NCBI GenBank assembly: GCA_030432295.1
Contig: JAUIHI010000025.1
Location: 1-64,000, forward strand
Reading direction: 5' to 3'
Length of the DNA stretch: 64,000 nt
DNA from: Anaerolineae bacterium
GTDB lineage: Bacteria > Chloroflexota > Anaerolineae > Caldilineales > Caldilineaceae
How positions within the stretch are numbered: position 1 is the stretch's first letter; each line of letters opens with the position of its first letter. The notes beneath the pieces were generated by a model that did no database searches, had not been told where the DNA came from, and was given only the letters and a program-made list of their open reading frames with translations. Position numbers and translations under genes: made by a program. Of this stretch, positions 33,149-44,072 are shown piece after piece.

Positions 33149-34453
33149 CTACCCCAACGCCTGCGCCACAAACTTCACATCATCCCACAGCCCTTCCTGC
33201 ACATAATAGACTCGCACCTCCCCCGTGCGTAGCTGCTCGGCCTGCTGGCCCACATAGCGCAGACCGCCCACATCCAGCGAAAACTCTTGGGAATTGGGCA
33301 CAAAGCCGTCGGCGAGGATGCGCTTCTGGATGGCCGCGTCTTTGTTGAATCGTATGCGCTGATTGGCCCGGCCCGCGGCCACGAGACTGGCCCGCAGTAT
33401 ACCCGCGTTGACCGCTGTCGCTGGTGGTGTCGCGGGGGTGGGGGGTGGCGCGACCGGAGGCGGGACAACCGCTCCCGCCGCGCTGGTAGCTCCACCAGCG
33501 CCAGCGGAATGCCACTGTTTCTCCGGCGGCACCGGCTGGGGAATGGGCTGATCCGGCCCTTCCCGATTCAATTTCTCCAGCCGATTCATTACCCCGCCCA
33601 GATGCTCGAAGCTGTGCCAGGGCGAGACCGCGCCCACCACAAAAAGACAGGCCCCCATCACATACTCATCCCGCATCAGTTCGTGGTTGTACCAGAGCAG
33701 GGATCGCCAATACTGCTCTTCTGGCACAGGATGGCTCTCGTGCCAGGGGCCTACATCCTCGCCGCCGGAGACGCCCTGGGTCATCCCGCATTCGGTGATA
33801 ATGACCGTATGCTTGTTGCCATACTTGGCCCGCACCCCCTCCAAATCCATCGTGCGCCGGTAGCGCAGGGCCAGCCACATCCCCTCTTCGCCCTTCTCTT
33901 CAATATTGGACTTGTGCAGCCGCCACAGGTCGGGGAAATCGTACTCGTGAAAGCCCAGATATTTGTAGGTTTCCAGTGTCCCGGCGAAGTGGTCCAGAAA
34001 GTCGCTGCCCCGCATATTGCCCGTGGCAAAGTTCATGGCAATCGGCTCGAAGCCACCGGCCCGCAAGCGCTCACCGTAGGCCACCTGAAAATCGTCATAC
34101 TTGCGCTTCTGGTCCGTGTCCACGTGGCCGGGCATCACTTCGTTGTAGGATTCCCAGGCGTCGAAGAGGGGACGTCCATTGATATGGGCGTTGTTGGCCT
34201 CCAGCCCTAGTACCTTTTCGGCATAGCGCTTGCCAATCCCCTTGGGATCGTCCACAAAGCGGCTCTGCTGCTCATTGGGTACGTAGTCCCGTCCGATCAG
34301 AAAGACATCCGGGTGAAACCCCCGCACTTTTTTCCAAAAGTCGATGTTGGAGTCCATCGACTTGATCACCCGGGGCTTGAGCCGCCGGATGGCATCCAGC
34401 ACGTCATCCCCGGTGCGGTTGACGTGAAAGCCATATTTGTGAAACTGTGACAT
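33149..34453 (-). CDS. Glycoside-hydrolase-like TIM-barrel protein with Pro/Ala linker
   Basis: The 434-residue protein shows a clan-A-type layout. 'KSMDSNIDFWKKVRG' leads to 'FDAWESYNEVMPG', whose Asn-Glu is where the acid/base residue is expected, and 'HTVIITECGMTQG' offers the nucleophile Glu. A Pro/Ala/Thr linker (about 330-365) joins a short C-terminal domain ending 'LWDDVKFVAQALG'. There is no signal peptide. It is the downstream neighbour of a larger protein with a similar barrel. Substrate unknown; the two Glu positions are read by eye, not by alignment. Confidence 0.7.
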   Translation of the reverse strand: MSQFHKYGFHVNRTGDDVLDAIRRLKPRVIKSMDSNIDFWKKVRGFHPDVFLIGRDYVPNEQQSRFVDDPKGIGKRYAEKVLGLEANNAHINGRPLFDAWESYNEVMPGHVDTDQKRKYDDFQVAYGERLRAGGFEPIAMNFATGNMRGSDFLDHFAGTLETYKYLGFHEYDFPDLWRLHKSNIEEKGEEGMWLALRYRRTMDLEGVRAKYGNKHTVIITECGMTQGVSGGEDVGPWHESHPVPEEQYWRSLLWYNHELMRDEYVMGACLFVVGAVSPWHSFEHLGGVMNRLEKLNREGPDQPIPQPVPPEKQWHSAGAGGATSAAGAVVPPPVAPPPTPATPPATAVNAGILRASLVAAGRANQRIRFNKDAAIQKRILADGFVPNSQEFSLDVGGLRYVGQQAEQLRTGEVRVYYVQEGLWDDVKFVAQALG

Positions 34454-34558: not shown

Positions 34559-37348
34559 TTACGGCAGCCACCGCCCCGGCTCTTCCACCGGCGGCGGGGT
34601 GGGCGCATAGCGGGGAATATCCCGCATGGCCTCCAAGTCCCGGCCATAGAGGACGAGATTGAGTTTGGATTGGTCCAGGAATGGCATGGGATCGCAGAAG
34701 CCGCCCCAGCCATCTTTGCGCGAGTAGGGGTCGATGCGGATGCTGAAATGGAGATGGGGTCCGGTGCTGTTGCCCGAATTGCCCGACTCGCCCAGCACTG
34801 TCCCTTTACCGACCGCCTGTCCGGGCCGCACAATCGATTTGTTCAAATGGGCGTAGTCCGAGTGGCCCCAGCGATGGGTCACCCGCACCCAATTGCCATA
34901 GCCGCCGGGCAGGAAGTCAGCGTAGCTCACGGTGCCTGCGTCCGCGGCCAGGATGGGCGTGCCAACTGGCGTGCCAATGTCAATGCCGTTGTGTCCCTTC
35001 AGGGGCACGCCGTCGTAGGGGAACTGGCCGTATATCTGGGGGTTCTCTCCCCACAATTGAGTAATCGGGTGATTGCCCCTATAGGGCACGCCCAGGCTGA
35101 TCAGATTGCGGAAGATGGCCGGGGCCAGCAGCCGGATACCGATGGGGCTGACCTCCGCAATCCAACCATCCACGGCTGGATTGTCCACGCCGCTCACCCG
35201 CCACCAGCTAAGACCGTCGGCCTGGCGTGGACCCTCGGCCAGCTTCAGCAGTGCTTTGCTGGGGACAACCGCCACCACATCGCTGTCGGGTTTGCCCATA
35301 TAGCCCGGCGAGCGACGGGCATTCACATCGTAGGGGGAGATGTTCGTCACCGGCGCGCCGGCTGTGTAGGTGGCAACAGCAGTCGTCTCCACCGGCTTGG
35401 GCGGCGGCGGCGCACTCTTGCCCAGCAATTCGGCACCGTCCGTGCCCGACTCCGCGGCCCAGCCCACCAGCGCCCGATTCTGCGCGTCCGTATGGGCGAG
35501 ATGCCACCAGGTCAGGTCATCGGCCTTCTGCGGACCGGCTTTCACCAGCCCCGATTTGCCGTAGGCGATCTCCCCCGCGATGTCGTCGGGGGTTTTGCCC
35601 ACATAGCCTGGAGAACGGCGCAGGTTGACAAATGTCTGGGCGAAGACGGTCTCACCTGCCCGGAACTTGCCTGTTTTCCCCTCTCCCGCAGCGGGGGAGG
35701 GGCTGGGGGTGGCGGGTGCTGTTGCGCCCCCGCCCTGGGCCTGCTGGCTGGACGAGAGCAGAACTGTGCCGTCCACCGCCACCTGGGCCACCCAGCCGGT
35801 GGTTGGCTGTCGGTTCACCGTAGCCTGAATGCGCCACCAGACAATGCCGTCCACAATGCGCGGCCCCTCGGCCACAGTCGCCAACGCGTCCAGGGGCAGG
35901 TCGGCCACAATGTCGTCATCGGTCTTACCCCGGAAACCGGGCGTGCGGCGCAGACGGGTCGTGTCCAGGGTGAAAATTCGTTCCCCCACCGTGAAGGGCC
36001 TGCTGGGCGGGTCGCCTGCCGCCAGCAGAGGCGCGTTCGCACCGATGGCTTGGGCGGACCAGCCATCCGCGGTTGTGCCGTCGGCGCTGAGGCTGGTGAT
36101 GCGCCACCAGACCAGATTGTCCGCGTTCCGGGGACCTTGCATAATTTTGACTGGGGTGTGGGGCGGCAATTCGGTCAATACATCTTCCGCTGGCTTGCCC
36201 GCAGACCCGGGCGACTTGCGCAGGCGCACGATCGTCGTCGTGTGGGCGGCTGCCTCGACTGCAAAGGCCGCCACCCCCGGCGTCGGGTTCCAGCGATAGT
36301 CGTTCGCCAGCACTTCCTTGAAATCTTCGATGACGCCGTTTTTTGTCTCCATCACCCAGCGGTCGATATTGGGCCAGCGGTAGAGGATCAACGACCGGAT
36401 CTGCTGGTTGCCCGGCGTCTGGTTCCAGCGATTGATCTCGGCGTAGGCCGCTTTGACCCAGCCATTGTTGGCGTCTTCCCAGGGGTAATCCTCGTCGGCT
36501 TCAGTGATGTAGACGGGCAGGTGGCGCATATTGGCCGGAACTGCCTCCATAAAATCCCGGTAGGTAAAGAAGTGGTAGTGGCGGTTTTGGAAGGGGGGAT
36601 CCATCTTCCCGTCCGATGTCACCAGCGCCGGGTCTGTGCCGTGGGTGTAGGTGTGCAGGGTAATGCCGTCGCAGTTGTCCGGCCCCAGCGCGATGAGGAT
36701 GTCCTGAAAGTAGCGCACCCAATCCCCGTCCGGGTTGCCCGGATAGGCGGTGTTGTTGTTCCAGGGAGCCACCGAACCAATCAGCACCTGATCGTTGGCC
36801 CGGCCCGGTCGCTTTTTGATCTCCTGGCGGCAGAGGCTGTAGCAGCGGGCGTAGTCGCTGGGGGTGATGGCCTGGCCGTGCTCGATGCCCCGACTGAGAG
36901 GTTTCTCCGGATGGAGTGCGGCAAAGCGGTCCGGCAGGGAGCGCAACTCGCCGTCTCTGGATTTGGGGTCCGGGTCTCGGCTGAAGGGCAGGTCCGGGCT
37001 GGCGAAGGCGCCGGGCCGTTCTACCCAAAAATTCATTTCATTGCCGATGATCCAAATGTGGCAGCCCTGGCTGGCCTCGACAAAATTGCCCACCCGCCGG
37101 GCAAAGTCGGGGTATTTGTCCGGCGCGGGAATGGTTCCCTCGGGCTTGTAGGCGTTGTTGATCCGCACAATCACCCCATAGCCTGCGTTGGCCCAATTCG
37201 TGTAGTTGCCGCCATTGCGGGCGTTGGGATCGCTGCCCACACCTTCGGTAAAAAGCACCCATCCCTTACGCCCCACATCGGCCATGTGGTTCTCGCCGCC
37301 CGGCTCGTGCAGACCAAAAATGTAGGGGGATTCGTGTAGTGCTGACAT
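34559..37348 (-). CDS. Chimeric protein: glycosidase-like TIM barrel, four SH3-like repeats, M23 metallopeptidase
   Basis: The 929-residue protein starts at 37348, with 'cggaggaa' just upstream (37353-37360). Residues 1-340 form a clan-A-like barrel with Asn-Glu in 'WIIGNEMNFW' and Glu in 'VYITEADEDY'. Residues 355-690 hold four SH3-like repeats built on 'RRSPGYxGKxxxD' and 'GPxxxDxLxWWRI'. The C-terminal LytM/M23 domain keeps all zinc ligands: 'KGHNGIDIGTPVG', 'DYAHLNKS' and 'GPHLHFSI'. M23 enzymes cut peptide cross-links of peptidoglycan and SH3 repeats bind cell wall. No signal peptide is visible, so export, if any, is non-standard. It follows a kinase and a PP2C phosphatase gene. Confidence 0.82.
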   Translation of the reverse strand: MSALHESPYIFGLHEPGGENHMADVGRKGWVLFTEGVGSDPNARNGGNYTNWANAGYGVIVRINNAYKPEGTIPAPDKYPDFARRVGNFVEASQGCHIWIIGNEMNFWVERPGAFASPDLPFSRDPDPKSRDGELRSLPDRFAALHPEKPLSRGIEHGQAITPSDYARCYSLCRQEIKKRPGRANDQVLIGSVAPWNNNTAYPGNPDGDWVRYFQDILIALGPDNCDGITLHTYTHGTDPALVTSDGKMDPPFQNRHYHFFTYRDFMEAVPANMRHLPVYITEADEDYPWEDANNGWVKAAYAEINRWNQTPGNQQIRSLILYRWPNIDRWVMETKNGVIEDFKEVLANDYRWNPTPGVAAFAVEAAAHTTTIVRLRKSPGSAGKPAEDVLTELPPHTPVKIMQGPRNADNLVWWRITSLSADGTTADGWSAQAIGANAPLLAAGDPPSRPFTVGERIFTLDTTRLRRTPGFRGKTDDDIVADLPLDALATVAEGPRIVDGIVWWRIQATVNRQPTTGWVAQVAVDGTVLLSSSQQAQGGGATAPATPSPSPAAGEGKTGKFRAGETVFAQTFVNLRRSPGYVGKTPDDIAGEIAYGKSGLVKAGPQKADDLTWWHLAHTDAQNRALVGWAAESGTDGAELLGKSAPPPPKPVETTAVATYTAGAPVTNISPYDVNARRSPGYMGKPDSDVVAVVPSKALLKLAEGPRQADGLSWWRVSGVDNPAVDGWIAEVSPIGIRLLAPAIFRNLISLGVPYRGNHPITQLWGENPQIYGQFPYDGVPLKGHNGIDIGTPVGTPILAADAGTVSYADFLPGGYGNWVRVTHRWGHSDYAHLNKSIVRPGQAVGKGTVLGESGNSGNSTGPHLHFSIRIDPYSRKDGWGGFCDPMPFLDQSKLNLVLYGRDLEAMRDIPRYAPTPPPVEEPGRWLP

Positions 37349-37382
37349 TTGGTTCCTCCGTTCCATTCCTCGAATAGGGTTG

Positions 37383-37856
37383 TTACGCACTGCTCGCCGC
37401 GCTGCCCGTTTTGGGAACCGGCGGCAAAGGGTAGCTCATCTGGGCAATCGGATTGGGCTGTCCCTTCAGCCAGGCCAGCACGTGGGAGAGCACCTCCCGC
37501 GCTTCCAGCCCACTGGTGTTCAGCGCCAGGTCGGCATGTTGGCGGGCGTGGCGCAGCCGGTGTGCTTCAGTTGCCAGCCAGGCCGGGTCCCAGGAAACGT
37601 CCGGGCGGCGCTCGATCTGTGTCACCAGATCGATTTCCAGGTAGATCAGCAGGGCTGGTGGACGAATTTTGCGCCACATTTCTGCCATTTCGCTGTGTTC
37701 CTGGCTGGCCGCGCGGGCGTTATAGCCCTGTTCGCGCAGACCGTTCACCAGCGTTGATTTGCCCGCCGCGCTCACGCCGACTACTTTGATAAGAGGCAGA
37801 TTCTCCCATTCCGGTCGGTTTGGGGCCACATCGGTCTCTTTTCTGGGCTGGATCAA
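37383..37856 (-). CDS. Small P-loop kinase-like protein
   Basis: The 157-residue protein has a Walker A motif 'GVSAAGKSTLVNGL' and the layout of adenylate-kinase/AAA-type small kinases. 'LLIYLEIDLVTQIERRPD' fits a strand-helix after the P-loop, and 'RLRHARQHADLALNTSGL' resembles the lid and the 'D..i.t' strand of such kinases. It overlaps the upstream PP2C gene by 4 bases and ends 34 bases before the start of the chimeric M23 gene. The substrate is unknown. Confidence 0.75.
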   Translation of the reverse strand: MIQPRKETDVAPNRPEWENLPLIKVVGVSAAGKSTLVNGLREQGYNARAASQEHSEMAEMWRKIRPPALLIYLEIDLVTQIERRPDVSWDPAWLATEAHRLRHARQHADLALNTSGLEAREVLSHVLAWLKGQPNPIAQMSYPLPPVPKTGSAASSA

Positions 37857-38566
37857 ATGGGGAAGCTCACGGCCAATCGGCGGATTTCATCGCCCCGTTG
37901 GTTGCCAACCAACATCAGGACCAAAACGGTGCAATCGTCCTGGGCGCGTCCCTTATCCAGCTGCAGCGCGGTTTCCAGAATGGCGTCGGCCAGCCCCTGG
38001 GCCGATACGGAACCCTTGGCCTGGGCCGCCCGCACTACCGCTTCTACATCCATTGACTGGCTGCTGCGGGAGCCAGCGCTCAGGATACCATCGGTAAAGA
38101 CGGTCACACACAGACCTTCCGTCAGGGGGATTTCGGTGATGGCCGGTTTGGTGTTGGGGTGAATTCCCACGGCTTCGCAACTCTCTGTCAGCCATTCGCT
38201 CTGGCCGCCCCGGCACAGGAGAACCGGGCAACGGCTGTTGCGGCTGATGACCAGCGTCTGGGTCGTCAGGTCTACACTGACGATATTCAGTTCGGCGCTG
38301 ACTTTGCCCCCCCGGTGGGTGCGCAGGTAGTCGTGGGTGGCCCGGGCCACCGCACCGTCCCGCACACCTTCAGCCAACAGGCTCAGGGCCTTGCGCGCCA
38401 CCAGATTACTGATGATCTTGGCGCTGCGCCCGCTCCGTTGTCCATCCACCACCACCAGGCTGACACCGCCGTGGGGACGTTCCACCATTTCGACTGTATC
38501 GCCGCTTTCGCTGGTGGCGTATTTCCCGATCTTTGCCACACCAGCCTGAATCTCTAAATTTGTCAT
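37853..38566 (-). CDS. PP2C/SpoIIE-type protein phosphatase
   Basis: The 237-residue protein carries PP2C features: 'GDTVEMVERPHGGVSLVVVD' near the N-terminus, 'GLCVTVFTDGILSAG' in the middle, and the metal-binding 'AQDDCTVLVLMLVG' near the C-terminus. Its compact size fits the SpoIIE-like phosphatases that reset anti-sigma or other phospho-Ser/Thr signals. It heads a probable operon of phosphatase, P-loop kinase and chimeric M23 protein, with a 4-base overlap to the kinase. PP2C genes also recur in Chloroflexota conflict and signalling clusters. Confidence 0.82.
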   Translation of the reverse strand: MTNLEIQAGVAKIGKYATSESGDTVEMVERPHGGVSLVVVDGQRSGRSAKIISNLVARKALSLLAEGVRDGAVARATHDYLRTHRGGKVSAELNIVSVDLTTQTLVISRNSRCPVLLCRGGQSEWLTESCEAVGIHPNTKPAITEIPLTEGLCVTVFTDGILSAGSRSSQSMDVEAVVRAAQAKGSVSAQGLADAILETALQLDKGRAQDDCTVLVLMLVGNQRGDEIRRLAVSFPI

Positions 38567-38648: not shown

Positions 38649-40271
38649 CTACTGCGCGTGCATAGTCATCGACACCTGGCCGGACGAAACTGTGCGCCCG
38701 GAATTGCCGCTGGCCGCCTGCACCTGGAAGGTGTAGCTCTGGCCCGCCGCGTCCCCAGGCACATCTACGGCGACTGAAATGATGCGCCGCTCGCCAGCGC
38801 CCACACCCACCGAGAGGGAAGTGTCGGCACAGTTGCCGTCATCCCGGCAGATGACCGCGTTCCACGGCCCGGTTTTGCCCAGATCGACAAACATTTCGTC
38901 GGCCAGGGAACCCGTATTTTCGACCTGTAGATTGACCTGGCAGCGCTGGCCCACGAAGCATTGCTTCTGGTTTCCGCCGTCTACCGTCACCTGCACCCCA
39001 TAGCTGGGGGGAATCGGTGTGGCCGAAGGCGTCCCCACAGGGGTCCACGTGGGGGTGGGAGTGAGAACCGGTGTGTTGGTCGGTGTGGCTGTGGGCACAA
39101 CTGTATTGGGCACCAGTTCCACAAAGACGGTGTGGGTCTCTTTGGAGCCGTCCTGTCGCAGCACATCCAGGGTAAAGGTTTGACCAGCCCAGCGCAGACA
39201 GACCTGGCTCTCCCCGTGGCCGGGCACACCCACATTGTCCAGGAAGACAGCCCGGGCATTTTCAACATCCCAGGAGAGAATAGTGCAGGCACCGGGCAGG
39301 ACCGACTGGTTGGCCGCCCGGAAGGAGACAGTGGGCAGCACAAAATCCGGCGTACCTGTGGCCGGGACGCTCCCAGGCACTGGCGTGCCGGGATTGCCTG
39401 GTGTGCTGGTGGGTACTACAAATTCGGGCGTCGGGCGGCGGGTCGGCGTGGGCGGGGTGTCGCCGGGCTGGGTGATGACGAGATTGCCTGCCACCGCGGT
39501 TGCCAGCGCCGGGGCCAAGGGATCGACTGTCTGGTCGGCGGGTGTGGGCGTTGTGATCACCACCGGCCCCACCGGCTCGCTGCTGTCTTGGGTCGGCGTC
39601 ACCGCTTCGGGGAAGGCAAAGGTGGCCGAGGGTGTGGGCAGTTCGGTCACAATCACAAGGGGTTCTGCTCCCGGTTGTGGTGTCGTCTGCGCTGCCGCGG
39701 TCTGTTGCGCCACAGATAATTGGGTTTGGGGCTGCCCGGTGGCAGTGACGAGCACAAGCACTGTACCCGGTTCGCTGGCGGCTGGTTCGCTGGCTGCTCT
39801 TTGGGAGATAGCGGCGATGCCCTGGCCCACCATCCGCCAGCCCGCATAGGCCGCCAGTGAGCCGCCACACAACATAAATACGAGCAGCAGCGTAGCCACC
39901 CCCGCCCACACGCCCAGGCGGGATGGGCCACGCTCTGGCCCATCAAAGCCCAAGTCGTCGCCCAATCCCAGCCCAGATCCCACAGGCAAGCCGAGTACTG
40001 ACATTTTCTCGGCGGAGTCATCTTCCAATGTCAGCGCGCCGGGCTGGGATTGAAGCAGGCGAAAGCGCGGGCAGAGCCGGTGGCTTTGGCCCAGGCAATA
40101 GGTGGCCTGATCCCGCAGGAGCAACTGATCCCGGCTTTCCAGCCCGTCGTCGGCGGGATCGATCAGATGCACCACCGCGCAGTGGTTTTCAAAGCTGGGA
40201 TAGATGGCCGGGTCGCACCGATTGCCATCGGCATCGACCGCGCCCACGTGGGGGCAGATGGGTTGGGTCAT
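38649..40271 (-). CDS. Membrane-anchored protein with Cys-rich N-terminus, Thr/Pro linker and Ig-like C-terminus
   Basis: The 540-residue protein starts with a cysteine-patterned cytoplasmic-looking segment: 'ICPHVGAVDADGNRCDPAIY', 'FENHCAVVH', 'YCLGQSHRLCPRF'. I recall this pattern before LysM- or TP-linked domains in Chloroflexota. One membrane helix follows ('WAGVATLLLVFMLCGGSLAA', about 125-145), then a long Thr/Pro/Val linker. Two beta-rich domains come next: one with 'CTILSWDVENARAVFLDN', and a CARDB-like one ('NLQVENTGSLADEMFVDLGK' with paired Cys). It probably displays a binding domain outside the cell. No enzymatic motif is seen. Confidence 0.7.
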   Translation of the reverse strand: MTQPICPHVGAVDADGNRCDPAIYPSFENHCAVVHLIDPADDGLESRDQLLLRDQATYCLGQSHRLCPRFRLLQSQPGALTLEDDSAEKMSVLGLPVGSGLGLGDDLGFDGPERGPSRLGVWAGVATLLLVFMLCGGSLAAYAGWRMVGQGIAAISQRAASEPAASEPGTVLVLVTATGQPQTQLSVAQQTAAAQTTPQPGAEPLVIVTELPTPSATFAFPEAVTPTQDSSEPVGPVVITTPTPADQTVDPLAPALATAVAGNLVITQPGDTPPTPTRRPTPEFVVPTSTPGNPGTPVPGSVPATGTPDFVLPTVSFRAANQSVLPGACTILSWDVENARAVFLDNVGVPGHGESQVCLRWAGQTFTLDVLRQDGSKETHTVFVELVPNTVVPTATPTNTPVLTPTPTWTPVGTPSATPIPPSYGVQVTVDGGNQKQCFVGQRCQVNLQVENTGSLADEMFVDLGKTGPWNAVICRDDGNCADTSLSVGVGAGERRIISVAVDVPGDAAGQSYTFQVQAASGNSGRTVSSGQVSMTMHAQ

Positions 40272-40334: not shown

Positions 40335-41864
40335 TCACATTTCGCGTTGCAGCAACAGTTCGGAGGCCAGGGCCAACGCTTCGTCCGCGCTGGTCACTTC
40401 GCCTGCGGCCTGGGCTTCTGCAATAGATTCTAACAGATAACCCATCATTCGCCCCGGTGCGAGATCGAGCGAACGCATTAGTGTATTGCCGTCCACCAGC
40501 GTATTGCCCGCGACGGCTGTATTGGGCGCAAAGGCAAAGTCGATGATGCCTGTGATGCCGTTCAGATATTCGCCCCAATCGCCACCCCTGGCCTTGCCGG
40601 GAGCCTGTCGGTCGGCCAGGGCCAACAGCAGCACATCCAACCCCGTGCGGTCGCCCTTTTCGCCTGTGGCTGTGGCACGCAGGAAACGGTAGCAGGCCCG
40701 GCGGCTGATGACCCCATCGGGGAAGGCGTCGGAGAGGTGGTGGGGGCGCATGTGGGCCGCGGCCACGGCCTGGGCCACCTGCACCTCCCGGCGGCTGAAG
40801 CGGAGGGCGTCGCTGCGCTCGGCGGCAATCGTCGCGCTGACATCTTCGTGGCCGAAGAAGCGGATGCGGCGCTCGCCGGTTTCCGCCACTTCTTCGGAGA
40901 AAGCCGCGGGTTTGCCTGTGTCGTGGAAGAGGGCGTGCCAAACCAGCCAGCCCGCCCGGCTGTGGCCCGCGGAAAGCTCCTCGGCAAAATGGATTGCCAG
41001 TTTTTCCTGCCAGGGCGACAAGGCAACCTGCAAATCGGCATCGGGCAGACTGTCGGTTTGACCGGTCAGCCAGTCGCGCAGGGCCGCTGCGTAGTTCATC
41101 ACCTGCACTGTGTGGCCGAAGACGTCCAGGTGGTGGGGCGGACTCTGGCGGATGTGGTCTGTGGCCGCGACTTCGGGCAGTACGTGGGCCAGCAGCCCCA
41201 GCCGGTGCAGTTCGGCCACCGCATCGCCGGGGCTGGGCAGGGCAAGGATTTTCCATAGCTCGTCCCGCTGGCGCTCCGGGCTGGCCTGGGTCACCTGGGC
41301 GGCCAGCGGCTGAATCTGGCGCTCTGTCCCGTCCTCAATCGCAAAATCCAACTGCCCGGCAAAGCGGACAGCGCGCAGCATCCGCACTGGGTCCTCAGCC
41401 AGACTCTGGGGGCTAACGGCCCGAATCAGCCGTGCGCGCAGATCGTCGGCTCCGCCCCACAGATCGATCAGCCGGGGTGGCTGGTTCGGGCGCAGTTCCA
41501 GGGCCAGCGCATTGATTGTGAAATCGCGCAGGGCCAGATCGTCGGCCAGTTCCCCCCGCAGCGCGGCCAGATCGCAGACCAGCGGGGGCGCGTCCTCCCG
41601 GTTCAGGACAATCCGGGCCACATCCCGCTCTGCGTCCAGGGGGTAGTAGGCCCAGCCCAGCCGGTCCGCCACCCGGCGGGCGACCGGCAACACCGGACTT
41701 TCCAGGGCCAGGTCCAGATCGGTGACGCCTGCTTTGCGGCCCAGCAGGGCATCCCGCACCGCACCACCCACCACATATACCGGTTCCCGTTGGGCCAGGA
41801 GTGTTGTCAGGACCGCTTCAAATTCCGGCGCGGCCCAATTTTCAATCGTCTGCTCACTGTTCAT
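40335..41864 (-). CDS. cca: CCA tRNA nucleotidyltransferase / poly(A) polymerase family with HD domain
   Basis: The 509-residue protein has the class II nucleotidyltransferase head ('YVVGGAVRDALLGR' and the catalytic 'VTDLDLALE' DxD), the flexible-loop region 'RDFTINALAL', and 'RMLRAVRFAGQLDF'. It also has a C-terminal HD hydrolase domain with 'HALFHDTGKPAAF' and 'FFGHEDVSA'. It adds or repairs the 3' CCA of tRNA. The HD domain makes it the larger bacterial form with phosphohydrolase activity. It starts one base after the CHAT gene stop, so it is probably co-transcribed. Confidence 0.93.
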   Translation of the reverse strand: MNSEQTIENWAAPEFEAVLTTLLAQREPVYVVGGAVRDALLGRKAGVTDLDLALESPVLPVARRVADRLGWAYYPLDAERDVARIVLNREDAPPLVCDLAALRGELADDLALRDFTINALALELRPNQPPRLIDLWGGADDLRARLIRAVSPQSLAEDPVRMLRAVRFAGQLDFAIEDGTERQIQPLAAQVTQASPERQRDELWKILALPSPGDAVAELHRLGLLAHVLPEVAATDHIRQSPPHHLDVFGHTVQVMNYAAALRDWLTGQTDSLPDADLQVALSPWQEKLAIHFAEELSAGHSRAGWLVWHALFHDTGKPAAFSEEVAETGERRIRFFGHEDVSATIAAERSDALRFSRREVQVAQAVAAAHMRPHHLSDAFPDGVISRRACYRFLRATATGEKGDRTGLDVLLLALADRQAPGKARGGDWGEYLNGITGIIDFAFAPNTAVAGNTLVDGNTLMRSLDLAPGRMMGYLLESIAEAQAAGEVTSADEALALASELLLQREM

Positions 41865-44072
41865 TCACTGCTCACTTCCCCATCCCACCTGGATATTTGG
41901 ATCGCCGTAAAGGGTGTAAGCCAGCCAGGTGGAGTTGGCGGGTGCCTTCTCGCGAATCTCCTGGCGTGCGGTGTGGAAGGCCGCGCCCAGGGTTTGCCCG
42001 TCCTGCAATTCGCTGTAGAAGCGCAGAGCAAAGTCTGCGGCCAGCGCGTCGTTTACCTCCCAGAGCGCACCGATAAAGACACCGGCCTTGGCCTGGTTGA
42101 TCATCTGACCCGCCCATCCGCCCAATCCGGCCAGGGAGAAACCCATACGCGCGCCGTGGCAGGTGTTCATAAAGACCAGTGGCCGCCGTTTGCGCAGGCC
42201 AAAGACCGCCTCGCCCACCAGATCGTCCGGGCGCAGTTCCGTATTGTTTTCCAACAGAATCGAGGAACTGTCGATGCTTTTGGCGTTGAGGCGTCCGTGG
42301 GTGGAAAAGTGGAGCAGTTCGACCCCCTCTTTGCCGATCTGGCGCACCTGGGCCAACTGACGCAGGGTCTCCCCGATGGCAATGCGGCGGGCGGGCAGGC
42401 TTCCGAAAAAGTCCACTTCCCGCTTGACTTGGGTCAGGTCTGTGTCCGGGGCCACCAGCCGGGCGGTGTCGATGCGCAACCGGTCCACCTGTCCCGGCCC
42501 AGCCAGCCAGCGACTGATCTGCCAGCCTTCGGCCAGAAAGTCGTCGGCCTCGCCTTCGTCCATATCCACAGGCTTGACCATCTCCCAGGGAATCCACGGC
42601 TCGTCGCTGACAATGTGGAGGGACTTCAGCACCCCCTGCTCGCGCAGTTTGACCAGCTTCCAATAGGCCCGTTTGAGTTTGTCGGGGAAAAGGGAAAGAA
42701 AGAGGCCGTTGCCGATGGCGGTCAGCCGGTCGTGGATGTCGGCGATGACGTCCGCATCGGCAGGTTGTCCACCTGCCCACTGGTTGAGTTCGTCGTAGCG
42801 CTCCTGCATATATGCCTGGGGTTCTACAGCCATCTCCACGCCACCCATCGGCGCATTGGAGACATCCGCTGCCTGGTGGGGGGAGGAGAGTTCAAAGGTC
42901 AGCCGCTTGCCATCGGCCCGGATGCGTATCTCCACATCGGGCGGGGGTGGGGGAAACTGGGGTATCTCCACTGACGAGGGCGGCTGGCGAAAGGTGAGCG
43001 CGTCGGTTGCGGCGGGTCCGGCGGCGACCGGTTCCTGGCTGCTCACCTGCACCACAAAACGGGCATTGCTGATCAGCCGCCCCCTGTGGCGGAAGTCGAT
43101 GCTGATCTGGCGTTCTCCCTCCTCCTGGCCCGCGGTGAGAATAAATGTGGCCTTGTCCGAGTCCTGAAAGCTGTAGACTTCCACGGCTTTTTGCCAGGTG
43201 TCGGTGCGTTCGCTAAAGCTGGGCGCGTCCAGATGGACGTGCAGGATTTCGGCGGTGAACTCTTCGACAAAGCCCACATTCACCACACCGCTGCTCATCG
43301 ATGCGGCGGCTTTCTCTTGGGTCAATTGTACAGTCAATGGGCGGGTCTGGCCCGGTTTCAGCCAATTGGCAAAACGGATGTCTGTGTGGAAAGGAACGCT
43401 GAGTGCGAAGGCTGGCGAGCGGCTTTCGTCTTCGCTGGGGGAGGCTTCTTCTGCATCTTCCCGCGCGGGCAGAGCCATTTCCAGTGGTTCAACCGCCGTG
43501 GCCATGGCAAGCTCCCGCTCGAATACGGGTTGCATCGCTTCCAGCCCTTTGGCTGGGGTGAAGCTCTCCTCAACACGTGTGGCATTATTTTCTTCTGCCA
43601 TTGCGACGTGGACGCCGCCAATCCCGTTGGGGAAAAGCTCAGTCAGGCTTTTGCGCGTGCCGGAACGCATGCGCAGGGGCTGGTAGATCAGGCCGACAAA
43701 ATCGTCTCCGTTCACCGCCACCAGCGCCCTCCCTTCCTGGCGACGATTCCAGCCAGCCACTTCCCTATCCGTCATCGGGTCGTTGATGTCCACGACCTGC
43801 TGCACTGCCAGAAACCAATCGAAATCCGCCAAAGGCCGGTAGAGTTGGCTGTACTGCTCGTCCGAATCCAGGCGGGCGAGGCGGGCGGTGATGCGGTCCA
43901 CCCGTTCCACCCGGTAGCTGCCATCGTCCAGCCGGGTCAGGACGAAAGTCTCCCGTTCGGCCAGAGCGCTCTTCAGAAAGCGCTGAAGCACATCGCATAA
44001 AAATTCATAGCCCTCAGCCAGGAGGACGTTGGGCTGTTTCTGTTCGTCGAGTACGGATTGGCTGATAGGCAT
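41865..44072 (-). CDS. CHAT-domain caspase-like protease
   Basis: The 735-residue protein ends in a CHAT domain (about 480-735). The catalytic His is in 'ELLHFSTHGRLNAK' and the Cys in 'LVFMNTCHGARMGF', followed by 'GGWAGQMINQAKAGVFIGAL' and 'YTLYGDPNIQV', all typical of the family. Residues 215-330 look like a beta-sandwich ('VPFHTDIRFANWLKPGQTRP'); the first 200 residues are unlike anything I recognise. CHAT proteases act as conflict or cell-death effectors (for example the gRAMP-associated TPR-CHAT). Here the gene lies beside cca rather than a CRISPR or STAND gene. Confidence 0.85.
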   Translation of the reverse strand: MPISQSVLDEQKQPNVLLAEGYEFLCDVLQRFLKSALAERETFVLTRLDDGSYRVERVDRITARLARLDSDEQYSQLYRPLADFDWFLAVQQVVDINDPMTDREVAGWNRRQEGRALVAVNGDDFVGLIYQPLRMRSGTRKSLTELFPNGIGGVHVAMAEENNATRVEESFTPAKGLEAMQPVFERELAMATAVEPLEMALPAREDAEEASPSEDESRSPAFALSVPFHTDIRFANWLKPGQTRPLTVQLTQEKAAASMSSGVVNVGFVEEFTAEILHVHLDAPSFSERTDTWQKAVEVYSFQDSDKATFILTAGQEEGERQISIDFRHRGRLISNARFVVQVSSQEPVAAGPAATDALTFRQPPSSVEIPQFPPPPPDVEIRIRADGKRLTFELSSPHQAADVSNAPMGGVEMAVEPQAYMQERYDELNQWAGGQPADADVIADIHDRLTAIGNGLFLSLFPDKLKRAYWKLVKLREQGVLKSLHIVSDEPWIPWEMVKPVDMDEGEADDFLAEGWQISRWLAGPGQVDRLRIDTARLVAPDTDLTQVKREVDFFGSLPARRIAIGETLRQLAQVRQIGKEGVELLHFSTHGRLNAKSIDSSSILLENNTELRPDDLVGEAVFGLRKRRPLVFMNTCHGARMGFSLAGLGGWAGQMINQAKAGVFIGALWEVNDALAADFALRFYSELQDGQTLGAAFHTARQEIREKAPANSTWLAYTLYGDPNIQVGWGSEQ

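Follow-up and report, generated by a model that had tools for sequence, protein, structure and literature searches.

Four open reading frames follow one another on the minus strand of the window, the whole 64,000-nucleotide stretch that was analysed, in the order PP2C phosphatase, small P-loop protein, chimera, and second barrel protein. The first (37853..38566) is a SpoIIE-type PP2C phosphatase, assigned by Pfam (SpoIIE PF07228, E 3.7e-20) and by the neighbourhoods of its relatives, and its Asp motifs SGD, VDG, TDG, and QDD are visible. Its partner (37383..37856) is a small, kinase-like P-loop protein, recognised from the open reading frame list, Pfam, and relatives' neighbourhoods; it carries the Walker A motif GVSAAGKST, and its Pfam matches are all below threshold. 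The chimera (34559..37348, 929 aa) joins a barrel of the GH-A type, four SH3-like repeats, an M23 peptidase domain, and a C-terminal tail, and the second barrel protein (33149..34453, 434 aa) lies beyond it. On the same strand, upstream of the phosphatase, are genes for a membrane protein with a Thr/Pro-rich linker (38649..40271) and a tRNA nucleotidyltransferase/poly(A) polymerase-HD protein (40335..41864), both of which, in several genera, likewise belong to the PP2C operon as its upstream members. Immediately upstream of the latter, in the same run, is the gene for a genus-conserved CHAT-domain (caspase-like) protein (41865-44072). The chimera locus is chromosomal, having housekeeping genes on both sides and a synteny that is kept over the Litorilinea-like genus. 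A prophage at this position was considered and ruled out, given these flanks, the genus-wide synteny, and the lack of prophage genes nearby.

The most probable start of the chimera is the ATG at 37348, which has GGAGG upstream, rather than the GTG at 37390, to which the open reading frame would extend; the N-terminus MSxxHxSPxIFG is common to its relatives in the genus. Residues 1-360 (36269..37348) form the barrel. An AlphaFold2 model (pLDDT 93.4) gives it eight strands in a (beta/alpha)8 fold, with E104 (37037-37039) just after strand 4 and E283 (36500-36502) on strand 7. These are the fold and the positions of the acid/base Glu (within an NE motif) and the nucleophile Glu that characterise clan GH-A, and both residues are invariant in an alignment of 62 barrel relatives, where N103-E104 and E283 are among 10 invariant columns and no barrel lacking the two Glu was seen. 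The nearest folds to the model are GH39 (including PslG), GH51, GH1, and GH44, all of those listed belonging to clan GH-A, with Z up to 21.4. Thus, the barrel is predicted, from its model, to be a clan GH-A (GH39-like) glycosidase. In profile searches, no Pfam family matched the barrel at E 0.1, NCBIfam recognised only the M23 part of the protein, the sole match of a barrel profile in the PDB was a GH5 mannanase chain (5.6e-05), and two members of the family matched DUF5722 weakly.

The repeats (approximately residues 366-748, 35105..36253) were delineated from the sequence and a repeat profile. Pfam does not recognise them and a PDB profile search with them returned no matches; the repeat profile does match the SH3_3 repeats of phage lysins (hhalign probability 83). 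The M23 domain (residues 785-872, 34733..34996) is matched by Pfam at E 2.5e-25 and has all of its zinc ligands (HxxxD...H...HxH), as do all 15 of the other M23-ended relatives examined. At the very end lies a conserved tail, ...EEPGRWLP (34562..34606), whose consensus is [DE]xPGxx[RL]P or a near variant; such a tail also ends the M23-ended chimeras L057-L091, L135, and L190, and it is perhaps a routing or docking tag. Within the Litorilinea-like genus, dN/dS is about 0.10 for both the barrel and the M23 domain, and the chromosomal gene is therefore being maintained.

The second barrel protein has conserved NE (104-105) and TE (220-221) motifs and no signal peptide. A Pfam search of it found no domain, and its AlphaFold2 model is of low confidence (pLDDT 45.8). 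Among its relatives, the same barrel is joined to Phage_lysozyme on the viral contig L204, to SH3 and N-acetylmuramidase (Muramidase) domains on another contig (C16) of the source genome, and to SH3-M23 in another genome (G008). Distant relatives (L197-L199) carry twin-arginine-like lipoprotein signals, and the fold is therefore exportable when a signal is present. This protein, like the chimera, is probably an endolysin-type wall hydrolase.

The architecture given in the preliminary description, a glycosidase with paired catalytic Glu joined to four SH3-like repeats and an M23 peptidase with all zinc ligands, with a second glycosidase-like gene next to it, is thus borne out, and the predicted domains argue for the proposed capacity to cut both the glycan and the peptide of the wall. 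That description had also remarked on the lack of a signal peptide, and this absence is real and family-wide: neither a signal peptide nor a TM helix was found in any of 84 barrel relatives, as judged by a crude hydropathy scan, not SignalP. By comparison, in seven of the eight other M23 proteins of the source genome the M23 domain is preceded by a strongly hydrophobic segment. Contig C37 of that genome (L201:3092-3658) encodes a second M23 protein without a signal peptide, which is approximately 190 aa long and has relatives across the family.

Relatives in phages suggest where such a protein may have come from. A scan of IMG/VR found the chimera-type barrel in 28 viral loci, where it is mostly fused to M23, GH108 muramidase, N-acetylmuramidase (PF11860), or SLT domains, with SH3_3 in several; some of these proteins are truncated where their contig stops or show no recognised second domain. 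Nearly all lack a signal peptide, the exception being L157, whose open reading frame, as called, includes a hydrophobic stretch at the N-terminus. In L141, a Phage_holin_4_1 gene (1.4e-30), one further gene, a barrel-SH3-GH108 lysin, TerS, TerL, and portal stand in a row, and L138-L140 are near-copies with the same holin-lysin-terminase-portal cassette. Three more loci (L155, L158, and L160) are marked as phage by terminase or tape-measure genes. No match to the barrel was obtained among the known phage and plasmid records of INPHARED and PLSDB, and a search of the literature on Chloroflexota endolysins found nothing on this barrel family. The barrel of the chimera is one of the modules from which phage endolysins are built. 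In a tree that includes the most similar 80 of 219 cellular rows, the cellular barrels fall inside a wider and deeper viral diversity, with two label changes; among those rows the relatives are Caldilineaceae, and the closest is from a Litorilinea MAG. Transfer from phage to host is the likely direction, for a tree resting on these closest 80 of 219 rows. In an even, phylum-wide sample of 71 genomes, two, including the source genome, had the barrel, which therefore appears restricted to a few lineages.

The barrel also occurs in other chromosomal architectures. In 43 of 50 testable loci, the gene immediately before scpA encodes a paralog with a barrel, an Ig domain, and three Amidase_2 domains, the two genes often having touching ends, and the source genome has a signal-peptide-free copy on contig C30 (L056:6992-10861). 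Like the chimera, this paralog has the homologous N-terminal barrel and no signal peptide; it differs in carrying Amidase_2 repeats, which are partly degenerate, and a C-terminus that is CWB2-like by eye, where the chimera has SH3-M23. In several genera, the M23 chimera itself lies just upstream of the barrel-amidase gene. LysM-barrel proteins are a further architecture in the family, and four Anaerolineae proteins (L118, L119, L126, and L133) combine a ribbon-helix-helix-like N-terminus, LysM, and the chimera-type barrel, again signal-peptide-free.

Given all of these findings, the chimera, probably together with the second barrel protein, may be an endolysin-type wall hydrolase that has become fixed in the chromosomes of Litorilinea-like Caldilineaceae and serves lysis or filament breakage, a reading to which we lean with modest confidence. 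Both barrel genes look like endolysin-type hydrolases inherited vertically in Caldilineaceae chromosomes, because the viral barrels are mostly signal-peptide-free and fused to lysin domains, a pattern that holds for the second barrel as well. In this model, the SH3 repeats would hold the chimera on the wall, the M23 domain would cut peptide bridges, and the GH-A barrel would cut glycan, either in peptidoglycan or in an envelope polysaccharide. The protein might accumulate in the cytoplasm and meet the wall once the membrane of its own cell is breached, much as a phage endolysin passes via a holin; its role could then be in lysis or filament breakage rather than in routine secretion. Our best guess is that the chimera reaches the wall by release on membrane failure. 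Because the barrel belongs to endolysins, the missing signal peptide is explained better in this way than by an unknown secretion system. What has been described for the host fits such a model: L. aerophila has peptidoglycan and grows as multicellular filaments with a shared outer layer; these filaments show irregular breakage, membrane blebs, and empty remnants (PMC13319060). The weak point is the membrane-breaching partner: neither of the two holin families searched, PF05105 (Phage_holin_4_1) and PF03788 (LrgA-type), was found in 25 relatives.

Another hypothesis, possible but rather doubtful, is that the chimera is a wall-remodelling enzyme associated with growth or division and exported by an unrecognised, signal-peptide-free route. 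The linkage of the barrel-amidase paralog to scpA fits a role in growth or division at least as well as one in lysis, the purifying selection on the chimera is strong, and the conserved tail of the M23-ended members could be the routing tag. However, no export machinery for such a route was found, lysis is presumably what releases the phage members built on this N-terminal plan, and most of the other M23 proteins of the source genome carry ordinary signals.

It had been postulated that the PP2C phosphatase and the P-loop kinase regulate the chimera, or that a contractile or contact-dependent system delivers it to degrade walls; this is improbable. The order PP2C, kinase, chimera, second barrel does recur in the Litorilinea-like genus and in one sister genus, the only two in which the complete chimera adjoins the pair. 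In a third genus SH3-M23 alone adjoins the pair, and in a fourth the chimera lies on its other side. However, the chimera is located elsewhere in most genera, and in most genera other than these the pair occurs without it. The phosphatase was found in 31 of 41 relatives and the P-loop protein in 32 of 41, mostly as neighbours. In other genera, the pair follows the genes for the tRNA nucleotidyltransferase and the membrane protein, and often two CNNM-like genes, with no chimera at that locus. The pair is thus a class-wide operon of its own, and its link to the chimera is mostly a neighbourhood effect, which speaks against regulation by the pair as a general rule; joint regulation in the linked genera is possible and is not a defining feature. 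The overlap of four bases between the two genes, reported in the preliminary description, is present (37853-37856), but it needs a TTG start, and the spacing differs among relatives. As for contractile delivery, a Phage_sheath_1 gene, possibly of a contractile system, is found elsewhere in the source genome (L202, contig C18, around 204167-204610), unlinked to the barrel genes. This could favour delivery of that kind, but six barrel-bearing genomes of the family, each at least 95% complete, yielded no contractile-sheath gene, and such an export system is therefore not required.

That the chimera is a cytoplasmic peptidoglycan-recycling enzyme, comparable, through its paralog, to the signal-peptide-free Amidase_2 enzyme AmpD, would suit the missing export signals and the Amidase_2 domains of the paralog but is improbable, given the phage lysin relatives of the barrel; SH3, LysM, and M23 modules typically belong to proteins acting on polymeric wall, not on soluble muropeptides, and we know of no recycling role for cross-link cleavage by M23.

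To return to the endolysin-type reading, a bolder extension of it, offered tentatively and with the expectation that it may well prove wrong, is that the whole signal-peptide-free chromosomal set (barrel-amidase with scpA, barrel-SH3-M23 elsewhere) represents phage endolysins that have been domesticated by filamentous Chloroflexota and that link division, or a programmed breakage of filaments, to the cutting of the wall through an undescribed membrane-crossing or self-lysis step. The GH-A barrel is a module absent from Pfam that is common to phage endolysins and chromosomal wall hydrolases of Chloroflexota, a phylum whose envelope is unusual. The chimera thus provides an entry both to filament breakage and to the way in which signal-peptide-free hydrolases get to the wall, and its family points to where lysins active on Chloroflexota walls may be sought. 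It also poses a question that can be tested: when, and in what manner, does a bacterium make use of a phage-style lysin kept in its own chromosome?

The chimera can be set beside several known systems. With GH39 and PslG its barrel has in common the fold (Z 19-21) and the Glu at strands 4 and 7, but it is only 12-14% identical to them, has no Pfam profile match, and is without a signal peptide. Zoocin A, lysostaphin, TagE, and MepM/ShyA likewise have an M23 domain with all zinc ligands, but they are exported or envelope proteins and combine it with other partner domains. Modular phage endolysins (M23, GH108, PF11860, or phage lysozyme, with SH3b) are encoded in phage genomes with a holin, whereas the chimera is chromosomal, vertically inherited, and without an adjacent holin, which stands only beside the phage relative L141, and it has in addition a GH-A barrel. 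In its predicted domains, however, the chimera is built as these endolysins are, with a wall-cutting catalytic module, an SH3 wall-binding module, and no signal peptide.
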